NCBI RefSeq assembly: GCF_018704125.1
Contig: NZ_JAGTIS010000010.1
Span: 62,001 to 126,000 of the forward strand
Direction of reading: 5' to 3'
DNA: 64,000 nucleotides
Origin: Metapseudomonas boanensis
GTDB taxonomy: Bacteria > Pseudomonadota > Gammaproteobacteria > Pseudomonadales > Pseudomonadaceae
Of this stretch, positions 1 to 4,801 are shown in pieces (the first letter of the stretch is position 1; every line of letters starts with the position of its first letter). The notes beneath the pieces were generated by a model. That model made no database searches. It saw only the letters and a list, made by a program, of their open reading frames with translations, and was not told where the DNA came from. The position numbers and the translations under genes were made by a program.

Positions 1-224
1 AGGGTGCCGACGATGCGCTCTTCGCTGGCGCCCAGCGGCAGGGTGACGAAGATCCCCTCCGGCAGCAGTTCGGCGATACCGCGCGCCAGGGTCGACTTGG
101 CCATGCCGCGTGGCCCCTCGATCAGCACGCCGCCAAGGCCTGCGTCGATGGCCGCGAGATACAGCGCCAGTTTCAGCTCATCGGCGCCGACTACGGCGGC
201 GAGGGGGAAATGAAGGTCGGTCAT
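1..224 (-). CDS. ChlI/BchI-like AAA+ ATPase (magnesium-chelatase-type), N-terminal part
   Basis: Only the first ~74 residues are in the window; the gene runs off the left edge. The ATG is at 222-224. A Walker A motif GPRGMAKST lies near residues 36-44, in the context of the MgChl I / CobS-like AAA+ family that powers metal insertion into tetrapyrroles. From memory, Pseudomonas commonly carries a ChlI-like gene beside a DAHP synthase gene and cobN, where it is thought to supply ATPase function to aerobic cobaltochelatase. Here it diverges from aroF, while cobN lies at 37.8 kb. The family is clear from the P-loop and surrounding residues; the role in cobalt chelation is inferred. Confidence 0.8.
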
Positions 225-347: not shown

Positions 348-467
348 ATGCCGCACCTCGCTTCCATCCCGTCCACCGCTTGCCAGGCCTCGGCCCCGGC
401 GCGCGTGCGGGTGGCCGCTGCGGCCAGCTATTTCCATGGGTATTGGTTTAGCCACGGGCTGACCTGA
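348..467 (+). CDS. Aromatic-rich leader peptide 1 of aroF (39 aa)
   Basis: Short ORF with a GGAG ribosome-binding site at 338-341, seven bases before the ATG. The first two thirds are Ala/Pro/Arg-rich. Residues 28-34 then hold five aromatics (Tyr28, Phe29, Tyr32, Trp33, Phe34), and the stop at 465-467 precedes a strong Rho-independent terminator by 52 nt. This is the layout of a transcription-attenuation leader, as in trp and phe operons: ribosome stalling at aromatic codons would favour an alternative fold and read-through into aroF, whose product starts aromatic amino-acid synthesis. The peptide itself is probably without function. This is a sequence-based prediction. Confidence 0.72.
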
Positions 468-556
468 TACCCAATCAGGCGGCCCACCTCAAAGGGTCGC
501 CTACCGAAGCACCACGAAACCCCCGGTCGGCAACCCGACCGGGGGTTTTGTTTTTT
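438..556 (+). promoter_or_regulatory. Predicted aroF attenuator (mutually exclusive RNA hairpins)
   Basis: Several pairings can be drawn. GGGTAT at 438-443, within the aromatic codons, can pair with ATACCC at 467-472. A hairpin of AGGCGGCCC (477-485) with GGGTCGCCT (494-502) follows. GCTGACC at 458-464, the last sense codons of leader 1, can pair with GGTCGGC at 525-531, which would break the 5' arm of the terminator at 520-545. That gives an antitermination model driven by stalling near codons 28-29. Pairings were read by eye and energies were not calculated. Confidence 0.5.
520..556 (+). terminator. Rho-independent terminator in the aroF leader
   Basis: Perfect 11-bp stem of CCCCCGGTCGG (520-530) and CCGACCGGGGG (535-545) with a CAAC loop, followed by TTTTGTTTTTT (546-556). 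It stands between a short ORF and aroF in the sense direction, so it acts as a conditional (attenuator) terminator rather than the end of a gene. Confidence 0.9.
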
Positions 557-1983: not shown

Positions 1984-2385
1984 TCAGTGGCAGCAGCCGG
2001 CTGACTCCAGATCCTTGAGGATCGGGCAATCCGGGCGGTGGTCGCCCTGGCAGGAATCGACCAGCTCTTGCAGGGTGTCCCGCAGGCTGGCCAGTTCGGC
2101 GATCTTGCGGTTGAGTTCATCGATATGATCGCGCGCCAGGGCCTTCACATCGGCGCTGGCGCGCTGGCGGTCTTGCCAGAGTTGCAGCAGCTTGCCGGCC
2201 TCCTCCAGTGAAAAGCCCAGGTCGCGGGAGCGCTTGATGAAGGCCAGGGTGTGCAGGTCCTGGCTGCTGTACTGGCGATATCCGCTGTCGGTACGACCCG
2301 CAGCGGGCAGCAGGCCGATACTCTCGTAGTAGCGGATCATCTTGGCGGTCAGCCCGCTTTTCTTCGCTGCTTGGCCGATGTTCAT
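1984..2385 (-). CDS. cueR: MerR-family copper-responsive regulator CueR
   Basis: 133 aa. The N-terminal winged-helix domain has the MerR signature (MNIGQAAKKSGL, then MIRYYESIGLL, residues 1-27), followed by a long dimerisation helix. A metal loop with two cysteines about eight residues apart (near 112 and 120, SCQGDHRPDC) is typical of Cu(I)/Ag(I)/Au(I) sensors. The C-terminus ends CCH. It follows cueA by 34 nt on the same strand, an arrangement known from P. putida cueAR. CueR activates promoters with a 19-bp spacer, and two such promoters are visible nearby (cueA and copZ). Confidence 0.93.
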   Translation of the reverse strand: MNIGQAAKKSGLTAKMIRYYESIGLLPAAGRTDSGYRQYSSQDLHTLAFIKRSRDLGFSLEEAGKLLQLWQDRQRASADVKALARDHIDELNRKIAELASLRDTLQELVDSCQGDHRPDCPILKDLESAGCCH

Positions 2386-2419
2386 TTGCTGTCCCTCGGG
2401 GGCGCGCTCGTTGGGGTCA

Positions 2420-4801
2420 TTACTTTGGCTTCCAGGTTTTCAGCAGCAGCGCGTTGCTCACCACGCTGACGCTGGACAGGGCCATGGCGGCGCCCGCCAC
2501 CACCGGACTGAGCAGTCCGACGGCTGCCAGCGGGATGCCGACCAGGTTGTAGATGAACGCCCAGAACAGGTTCTGGCGGATCTTCGCATAGGTGCGTCGG
2601 GAGATATCCAGGGCCGCGGGTACCAGGCGTGGGTCGCCGCGCATCAAGGTGATGCCGGCGGCGTGCATGGCGACATCCGTGCCGCCGCCCATGGCGATGC
2701 CAACATCGGCGGCGGCCAGGGCCGGGGCGTCGTTGATGCCGTCGCCGACCATGGCCACCGTCATGCCTCGTGCCTTGAGCGCGGCCACCGTGGCAGCCTT
2801 GTCCGCCGGCAGCACTTCGGCGTGGACCGAGTCGATCCCCAGGGCCTCGGCCACCACCCGGGCGCTGCCACGGTTGTCGCCGGTGATCAGGTGGCTCTGG
2901 ATATGCCGCGCGCGCAGGGCTTCCAGTGCTTCGGCAGCGCCCTCCTTGAGTGTGTCGCCGAAGGCGAACAGGCCGATGACGTGCGGCTGTGGGCCGAGGT
3001 CCAGCAGCCAGGACAGGGTACGGCCTTCGCCTTCCCAGGCGTCGGCCTTGGCGGTCAGCACCCCGGCGTCCAGGCCTTTGTCCTGCAGCAGGCGGAGGTT
3101 GCCCAGGGCCAGCAGACGGCCATCCACGCGCCCCTGGATTCCACGCCCGGCCAGTGCCATGCTCTCGTCCACTGCAGGCACCGCCAGTTGGCGTTCGGCG
3201 CAGGCGTCCAGCACCGCCTTGGCCAGCGGGTGCTCACTGCCGCGCTGCAGGGCTCCGGCCAGTTTCAGCAGTTCTGCTTCATTGCCGTTCTCGGCCGAGA
3301 GGTGGGCGATTCGCGGAGTCCCGGAGGTAAGGGTGCCCGTCTTGTCGAAGGCCACCACATTAACGCCGTGGGCCACTTCCAGTGCTTCGGCGTCCTTGAT
3401 CAGGATGCCGTAACGGGCGGCGACGCCGGTGCCGGCCATGATCGCTGTCGGCGTGGCAAGGCCCAAGGCGCAAGGGCAGGCGATGACCAATACGGCCACC
3501 GCATTGATCAGTGCGATTTCCAGGGGCGCTCCCGCCAGTAGCCAGCCGGTGAGCGTGACCAGAGCGATCAGCAGTACCGCGGGTACGAAGACCTCGCTGA
3601 CCTTGTCCACCAGTTTCTGGATCGGTGCCTTGGCGGCCTGTGCGTCTTCCACCAGGCGGATGATCCGCGCCAGCACGGTCTCCCCACCGAGAGCGGTGGT
3701 GCGGACCAGCAGGCGGCCTTCGCCGTTGATGGCCCCGGCGGTTACCTTGTCACCCGGCTGCTTCGCCACGGGCAGGCTTTCGCCGCTGATCAGCGCCTCG
3801 TCGGCATGGCTTTGGCCTTCGATCACTTCACCGTCGGCCGGGAAGCGCTCGCCGGGTTTGACTACCAGCACATCGTCGAGGCGCAACGCAACGATGGCGA
3901 CGTCTTCCTCCTGGCCGTTGCTCAATCGGGTGGCGCGCTCCGGGCGAAGGGCTTCGAGGGCGCGGATAGCAGAACTGGTCTGGCGTTTGGCGCGGCTCTC
4001 CAGGTATTTGCCGAGCAGGACCAGGGCGATGACCACGGCGGAGGCCTCGAAATACAGGTGTGGCATGCCGCCTGCTGGTGTGGCCCACCATTGGTAGACA
4101 CTCAGCCCATAGCCAGCGCTGGTGCCGATGGCTACCAGCAGGTCCATGTTGCCCGCACCAGCCCTGACCGCTTTCCAGGCTGCACGGTAGAACCGCGCGC
4201 CGAGGACGAACTGCACCGGCGTGGCGAGGGCGAACTGCACCCAAGCCGGCAACATCCAGTGGATGCCCAGCCATTCCAGCGCCATGGGCACCACCAACGG
4301 CAGGGCCAGTGCGATCGCCAGTAACACGGCCCAGCGTTCGCGATGTAGTCGGGTTTCGGCATCGTCGACGGGCGGGTGGCCTGCATCGATTAGCCTCGCC
4401 TGGTAGCCGGCCACAGCCACGGCCCGGATCAGCGCATTGCTATCGGGCTGGCCGAAGAGTTGCAGGTGGGCTCGTTCGCTGGCGAGGTTGACGGTGACAT
4501 CGGCGACGCCGGGCACCTTGCGCAGGGCCCGCTCGACGCGGCCGGCGCAGCTCGCGCAGGTCATGCCCGTGATGGCCAGTTCCAGACGCTGGCTCGGCAC
4601 TTCGTAACCGGCTGCTTCGACGGCTGCAATCAGTGCCGGGAGACTGTCACCCGAGGCTTCGACGCGGGCGTGTTCGGTGGTCAGGTTGACTGTTGCGGCC
4701 TGCACGCCGGGTACCTTGCCGAGCGCGCGCTCGACGCGGCCGACGCAACTGGCGCAGGTCATTCCACTGATGGGCAGGTCGATGGTGGTAAGGCTGGACA
4801 T
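2420..4801 (-). CDS. cueA: Cu(I)-exporting P1B-type ATPase
   Basis: 793 aa. Two N-terminal heavy-metal domains each carry GMTCASC (near residues 13 and 79). The transmembrane metal-site motif is CPC ([11 protein letters not shown]); the phosphorylation motif is DKTGT; the phosphatase loop is SGES and the hinge is [10 protein letters not shown]. Together these define a CopA/CueA copper exporter of the inner membrane that moves cytosolic Cu(I) to the periplasm. It is the first gene of a cueA-cueR unit, transcribed from a CueR-type promoter at 4828-4858. The start ATG at 4799-4801 has GGAGGAT upstream. The symbol cueA follows Pseudomonas usage; copA is equivalent. Confidence 0.95.

Follow-up and report, generated by a model that had tools for sequence, protein, structure and literature searches.

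A leader made up of a short aromatic-rich reading frame (ORF1) and the RNA that Rfam catalogues as P15 precedes an aroF-type DAHP synthase gene in Metapseudomonas boanensis. Its sequence predicts a ribosome-mediated transcription attenuator of that gene, a reading to which we assign a probability of roughly 0.8. The leader lies in a 64,000-nucleotide window, meaning the whole stretch of DNA that was analyzed (contig NZ_JAGTIS010000010.1, positions 62,001 to 126,000), and all coordinates refer to this window and to its plus strand unless stated otherwise. The anatomy of the leader is conserved in the Pseudomonadaceae loci that carry it, it accompanies this type of aroF gene, and several of its helices co-vary. 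From this we infer ribosome stalling, termination, a response to amino acids and a second regulatory step at another aromatic leader ORF (ORF2).

Leader anatomy and the distribution of P15

The gene at 746–1840 encodes an aroF-type DAHP synthase of 364 amino acids, matching the NCBIfam aroFGH equivalog at 440 bits (cut-off 173). Upstream of it, promoter-like boxes (TTGAAC-17-TAAGTT, 293–321) would put the start of the leader RNA probably near position 328. The TTG and TA of these boxes are kept in an alignment of 105 upstream regions, and a stricter sigma-70 scan of the same region reported zero sites. ORF1 (348–467), read directly from the sequence, comprises 39 codons from ATG to TGA and is preceded by a GGAG ribosome-binding site (338–341) that is likewise kept in the 105-sequence alignment. 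Near its C-terminal end the peptide reads Y-F-H-G-Y-W-F, placing two Tyr, two Phe and one Trp within seven positions. The aromatic stretch GGGTATTGGTTTAGC is unchanged in 99 of 105 loci; because it is near-fixed despite the opposite codon preference that these loci show in their aroF stretches (TAC 347 versus TAT 86; TTC 265 versus TTT 46), we regard it as more than chance.

Downstream of ORF1, sequence and fold both indicate an intrinsic terminator (520–556), consisting of segment E (520–531), a loop, segment F (535–545) and a T-run. Its stem, CCCCCGGTCGG (520–530) against CCGACCGGGGG (535–545), is a perfect, G+C-rich 11-bp helix that grows to 17 pairs (514–551) before the T-run. The region 348–556 folds at −112.6 kcal/mol (z = −6.6), and none of 200 shuffles did as well. 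ORF1 thus has the features expected of an attenuator leader, being short and combining the GGAG site with a cluster of codons for Tyr, Phe and Trp, the end products of the pathway, and an intrinsic terminator separates it from a gene that belongs to this pathway. An earlier sequence-only reading of this DNA had described the 39-codon frame with its good ribosome-binding site, the five aromatic codons within seven and the perfect 11-bp stem with T-run ahead of a DAHP synthase gene, and each of these descriptions held.

Positions 425–545 are a full-length member of Rfam family RF00627 (P15, Pseudomonas sRNA), matching model positions 1–119 at 94.4 bits (gathering score 70, E = 6e-19). The family is catalogued as an sRNA, and here it forms the 3' part of the leader; the Rfam model excludes the ORF1 start, the promoter-like site and ORF2. 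Both the Rfam identity and ORF2 (600–701) were absent from the sequence-only reading. P15 matched in 31 of 57 relatives, in all 18 genomes of the genus, and in 113 of 148 genomes of the family, 110 of them above the cut-off. At the level of the class, 7 of 369 genomes matched, and the two above the cut-off both belong to the Pseudomonadaceae. The window's own genome contains a single P15 match and no further one, and its other DAHP synthase gene (L112) has no aromatic leader above the threshold of our script.

Each of the 110 Pseudomonadaceae P15 loci carries both an aromatic ORF1 and an aromatic ORF2; three of the 113 matching genomes (G023, G084 and G132) lie outside this set. Our orientation script kept 105 of the 110 loci. 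The other five (L022, L087, L103, L109 and L110) were read separately, contain both ORFs and are outside the pair counts and energy tests. Aromatic codons and terminator are therefore conserved among orthologues, a check that the sequence-only reading had proposed and that we ran on the family loci. We assembled a second, named set of 80 loci among at least 118 P15 matches, spanning Pseudomonas, Stutzerimonas, Halopseudomonas, Denitrificimonas and a few MAGs. A DAHP synthase gene lies just downstream of P15 in all 71 loci of this set that could be judged, the remaining nine being too short, and ORF2 is present in 77 of the 80, the exceptions being two loci cut by the sequence end and L179. Conversely, a test of ten among the 35 P15-less family members showed that all ten lack this aroF paralogue, and at E = 1e-60 or better they have only another DAHP synthase, 51–53% identical.

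Beyond the family, two of eight genomes of other families (G041 and G054) encode two DAHP synthases each, and one of each pair (L132 and L113) is preceded by an aromatic leader without a P15 match. Leader peptides of such distant loci include WWFGYGFYFSQ (L113), FFFGYYFSQ (L132), MYFYGYWFSR (L133), SGYWFIRYGF (L134) and VGYWYWF (L136). L133 and L134, from another family of the class, have leaders that resemble P15 but score under its cut-off (69.8 and 43.5 bits); these leaders have GYWF peptides and precede DAHP synthases 62% and 56% identical to that of the window; the small ORF after the leader is less aromatic in both. To judge from these peptides, more distant relatives keep the aromatic-leader idea with an altered RNA. 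For L135 and L137, which are among the five weak matches at class level, the available flanking DNA contains no DAHP synthase gene, and these matches are probably due to chance.

A search by title and abstract among open-licence papers listed none that presents P15 as an attenuator or as the leader of a Pseudomonas DAHP synthase. The P. aeruginosa gene, which we take to be PA2943, is named in one open-licence paper only, in an expression table. P15, aroF, DAHP and leader peptide are absent from the main text of a study of 3' ends in P. aeruginosa (PMC8297930), as are P15, aroF, aroG, DAHP and aromatic from a study of premature terminators (PMC2965389).

Alternative pairings and ribosome placement

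The leader can be laid out as a his-leader-like series of segments in which A:B, C:D and E:F compete with B:C and D:E. Segment A (GGGTAT, 438–443), defined by its pairing with B, overlaps the control codons GGG TAT TGG TTT. Segment B (GGGCTGACCTGATACCC, 456–472), placed by sequence and alignment, holds the ORF1 stop codon TGA at 465–467. Segment C (TCAGGCGGCCC, 475–485) is supported by the B:C swap test, and segment D (GGGTCGCCTACC, 494–505) by its pairings with C and E.

We counted paired cells in alignment A1, which retains 68 of the 105 sequences (<97% alike), and found 393 of 406 for A:B, 447 of 476 for C:D, 670 of 680 for E:F and 407 of 408 for D:E. For the terminating set (A:B, C:D and E:F) as a whole, 96.7% of cells are paired across these distinct sequences. 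Eight cells of this set show two-sided change, a number reached by none of 500 shuffles; further pair types were not above shuffles, 496 of 500 being as high. Within A:B, one pair shows two-sided change, in two sequences, and compensated versions are visible by eye in L103 (GGGTAC/GTACCC) and L110 (TGCAT/ATGCA).

A fixed-column structure of B:C and D:E taken as a whole was not above letter shuffles. Fixed-column co-variation is absent for B:C because this helix slides, and we therefore compared each locus's own arms with arms swapped between loci. By this measure B:C gave a clear signal (1 of 10,000 permutations as good), followed by A:B (127 of 10,000), and there was no signal for C:D (1,393 of 10,000), for E:F (867 of 10,000, with only four distinct representatives) or for D:E (1,325 of 10,000), which also has zero two-sided changes. 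As a predicted helix, B:C is supported by co-variation and D:E by conservation only.

The columns of segment E bear on this point. In the upper terminator stem, E column 108 takes no part in D:E, and in 6 of 68 sequences it has changed along with F. D:E involves six E columns. Five of them are invariant, even at 107:118, where F loses the pair in 9 of 68 sequences; the sixth has T in place of C in 3 of 68 and still pairs with D, as G-U. The lower-stem columns 101–104, likewise unused by D, never change either, and the constraint on E is for this reason a weak hint for D:E.

We then computed how a ribosome on ORF1 might shift these folds, placing its footprint on the RNA made up to segment E in 105 loci. 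We express the results as a pairing index (summed pair probabilities divided by the nominal helix length), values of which can pass 1. The index for B:C was 0.38 with no ribosome, 0.70–1.04 with the ribosome from Phe-2 to Phe of YFxGYWF, and 0.00 with the ribosome at the stop codon. The corresponding values for D:E were 0.14, 0.22–0.28 on the aromatic stretch and 0.10. A ribosome at the control codons and one at the stop codon thus favor opposite folds in the computation, with a small shift in D:E, the predicted population of which stays low even with a stalled ribosome.

These results are consistent with the following mechanism. RNA polymerase would start near 328 and a ribosome would translate ORF1. 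When charged tRNA for Tyr, Trp or Phe runs low, that ribosome would stall on the codons overlapping segment A, allowing B to pair with C; D would then be free for E, the E:F terminator would be blocked and aroF would be transcribed. With plentiful charged tRNA, the ribosome would reach the TGA inside B, C:D and E:F would form and transcription would stop near 550, leaving a short RNA of ~225 nt that is probably Rfam's sRNA P15. Without translation, A:B, C:D and E:F would form, which should also terminate transcription.

The sequence-only reading had proposed an attenuator too, and that interpretation passed the sequence test it had set itself; the switch it drew proved wrong in detail. Its four motifs, GCTGACC (458–464), GGTCGGC (525–531), GGGTAT (438–443) and ATACCC (467–472), are all located as it described, and the GGGTAT:ATACCC pairing is the A:B helix counted above, conserved in 393 of 406 cells. 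The co-variation that it suggested looking for in the alternative folds was found for the terminating set (0 of 500 shuffles) and for B:C (1 of 10,000 permutations), and was lacking for D:E and for the antiterminator it had named, 458–464 with 525–531. That antiterminator is thermodynamically possible in the window, where all seven bases pair with one G-U, and in L007 of the same genus, and in L012 and L007 it is part of the fold predicted with a ribosome at Trp. Across alignment A1 it is not conserved, with 354 of 474 cells paired and two central columns unpaired in 55 and 56 of 68 sequences, and own arms did no better than swapped ones (2,607 of 10,000 permutations as good), so we consider it improbable that this pairing is the switch. 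Still slightly less probable, in our judgment, is that P15 is a free-standing, trans-acting small RNA to which the leader ORF is incidental. The Rfam name 'Pseudomonas sRNA P15' suggests as much, and Livny et al. are said to have reported P15 in 2006. The Rfam model also begins at 425, within ORF1. Were this the true 5' end, the RNA could not serve for translation of ORF1, which counts against an attenuator. The excerpted text of PMC2375449 names P15 as one of the sRNAs that Livny et al. detected. Against a purely trans-acting RNA stand the aromatic leader ORF kept in every one of the 110 loci, the DAHP synthase gene directly after P15 wherever the named set could be judged (71 of 71, among 80 loci) and the absence of this paralogue from all ten P15-less family members tested; moreover, a terminated leader RNA would be detectable as an sRNA anyway. 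A trans role could exist in addition to attenuation.

The second leader ORF

All 110 loci carry ORF2 between the terminator and aroF. In the window it spans 600–701 (33 codons, MISYRTYPTYYRNSDWRFSRFANAAIHLSRTPS-TAG, beginning MISYRTYPTYYRNSDWRFSR) behind an AGGA ribosome-binding site (589–592) that is kept in a 104-sequence alignment, and among the 105 loci measured its end lies 35–49 nt from aroF. Locus L022 has an extra ~100–150 bases between terminator and ORF2. Aromatic residues make up a mean of 19% of ORF2 compared to 3.8% of AroF (34 representatives). Trp-Arg-Phe occurs in ORF2 in 101 of 105 loci and is written TGG-CGA-TTT in 97 of these 101; CGA accounts for 70 of the 2,094 Arg codons in the aroF stretches.

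A hairpin, H1 (705–731), separates the ORF2 stop codon from the aroF ribosome-binding site. It folds better than the mean of 200 shuffles in 34 of 34 group representatives (mean z = −3.3), and its arms co-vary, none of 10,000 permutations being as good as the own arms in 44 representatives. RNAalifold returned no structure for H1 on alignment A2 (67 of the 105 sequences) because this alignment misregisters the arms.

The aroF ribosome-binding site GAGGA and its spacer GCCAGTC occupy 733–745, a placement that rests on the sequence and on swap and ribosome tests. In minimum free energy folds of the window, the spacer (739–745) can pair with GACTGGC at 642–648, which covers the Asp and Trp codons of ORF2 and the first base of the Arg codon. 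Across the family, a spacer pairs more strongly with its own ORF2 than with those of other loci (0 of 20,000 as good), and L020, L083 and L084 use other ORF2 bases with a correspondingly altered spacer. For the ORF2 energy tests we used 34 group representatives, 33 of which have the Trp codon. ORF2:spacer pairing beat shuffled spacers in 27 of the 34 groups (Stouffer −7.2). With a ribosome at the ORF2 Trp, the aroF start became easier to open in 26 of 33 groups, the mean change in opening energy being −1.44 kcal/mol compared to about +0.1 kcal/mol with shuffled spacers. With the ribosome on the ORF2 stop codon the aroF start was harder to open, the difference between stop and Trp being 2.41 kcal/mol versus −0.06 to 0.60 for shuffled and 0.98–1.51 for swapped spacers, which thus keep a third to a half of the effect. 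Synonymous-codon controls indicated that codon choice does not favor ORF2:spacer pairing (Stouffer −1.1 and +0.8).

For the window's own sequence, placing the ribosome at Trp left the opening energy unchanged (8.5 to 8.5 kcal/mol), and only early codons gave an opening (5.5 kcal/mol at Tyr7). Among 17 loci of the genus, 8 showed a drop in opening energy of 1 kcal/mol or more with the ribosome at Trp. The fold of 557–790 in the window is not unusually stable (z = +0.61).

We tentatively predict from these calculations that ORF2 is a second, translational attenuator, the signal for which is seen across the family but not in the window taken by itself. RNA that reads through the terminator would meet ORF2, whose aromatic codons would probably provide a second check, at translation. 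Pairing by the sequence around the ORF2 Trp codon would cover the aroF spacer or ribosome-binding site, and stalling of a ribosome at that codon would free the aroF start. Taken together with ORF1, this would amount to two ribosome-stalling attenuators in series on one gene, reading the same three amino acids at the passage of RNA polymerase and then at translation, an arrangement for which we judge the odds to be a little short of even.

Other roles for ORF2 draw on some of the same observations. It might keep the read-through RNA translated, and so protected against Rho, or supply aroF with reinitiating ribosomes, H1 serving as a spacer; the 35–49 nt between ORF2 and aroF with H1 in between (105 loci) and a codon choice untuned for pairing would suit such a role. 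Neither function needs 19% aromatic residues or a near-fixed TGG-CGA-TTT (97 of 101), and the stalled-ribosome calculations run in the direction of an attenuator; we regard this explanation as rather unlikely, and yet as a serious competitor. Very unlikely, by comparison, is a conserved microprotein with a function of its own. Trp-Arg-Phe in 101 of 105 loci would be in keeping with one, as would the C-terminal Arg-Thr-x-x seen by eye in many loci, but before WRF changes show no third-position excess (0.31/0.35/0.34 compared to 0.27/0.17/0.56 in aroF), and neither leader peptide of the window had an NCBIfam match at E = 1.

Outside these loci, L179 (an Alcanivorax MAG; minus strand, last 1,031 bases) has P15 and the terminator directly before the DAHP synthase gene without ORF2, and we saw no ORF2 in L113 or L132. 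ORF2 is therefore a separable module, and since an aromatic leader occurs without it in other families (L113, L132 and L179), the second leader may have been added later.

Relation to known leaders and neighboring genes

Leaders that read several amino acids exist for ilv and thr, and the his leader has the A–F segment layout. The present leader shares with the his leader (RF00514) and with trp and phe leaders the control codons over segment A, the serial alternative hairpins and the terminator. It scored 29.4 bits against RF00514 (gathering score 49), which excludes it from that family; the layout is similar, and the control codons are aromatic rather than His.

Two small ORFs in series, mgtM and mgtP, are also found in the Salmonella mgtCBR leader. 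That leader responds to ATP and proline, and ermB-type leaders respond to macrolides. As excerpted in PMC8274638, ermB is a translational attenuator with two leader peptides. Both systems resemble ours in having two serial small ORFs ahead of one gene, and neither is known to have two aromatic leaders flanking an intrinsic terminator.

Attenuation before a DAHP synthase gene is already known from Corynebacterium glutamicum, where, according to excerpts of PMC11802643, the aroR peptide contains Phe-Tyr-Phe and responds to Phe limitation (Neshat et al. 2014). The aroR-aroF system has in common with ours an aromatic leader peptide and transcription attenuation, and differs, as excerpted, from the Tyr, Phe and Trp codons, the other clade and the second leader ORF found here. 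Because aroR reads Phe and Tyr, the claim of the sequence-only reading that one peptide for several amino acids would be unlike known leaders went too far. For Acholeplasma, the available text of PMC8632094 proposes the uORFC-13-1 motif upstream of aroF, which contains one Phe codon or more and is exclusive to that genus and environmental sequences; it shares with the present leader a Phe-codon uORF and a terminator before the DAHP synthase gene, and has a single uORF versus two here. Judged against the open-licence papers searched, what appears to be new is the mixture of Tyr, Phe and Trp codons in ORF1 and the second aromatic leader in series.

If our reading is correct, a catalogued sRNA, P15, becomes the probable control device of the entry enzyme of the aromatic pathway in Pseudomonas, Stutzerimonas, Halopseudomonas and their relatives, and a single message carrying mixed aromatic codons would be subject to transcriptional and translational attenuation in series. 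Under the two-step reading, the lack of Tyr, Phe and Trp could be integrated at a single entry enzyme, whose response could be steep and AND-like. Such a case would bear on the way bacteria sense the multiple end products of branched pathways, and on the engineering of P. putida for aromatic compounds.

The intergenic region of the leader is shared with a divergent gene, the start of which occupies window positions 1–224 on the minus strand; by eye its product resembles, we presume, a magnesium-chelatase ATPase subunit. On the other side of aroF, minus-strand ORFs together span 1984–4801, and by eye they look like a MerR/CueR-type regulator (1984–2385) and a copper P-type ATPase (2420–4801).
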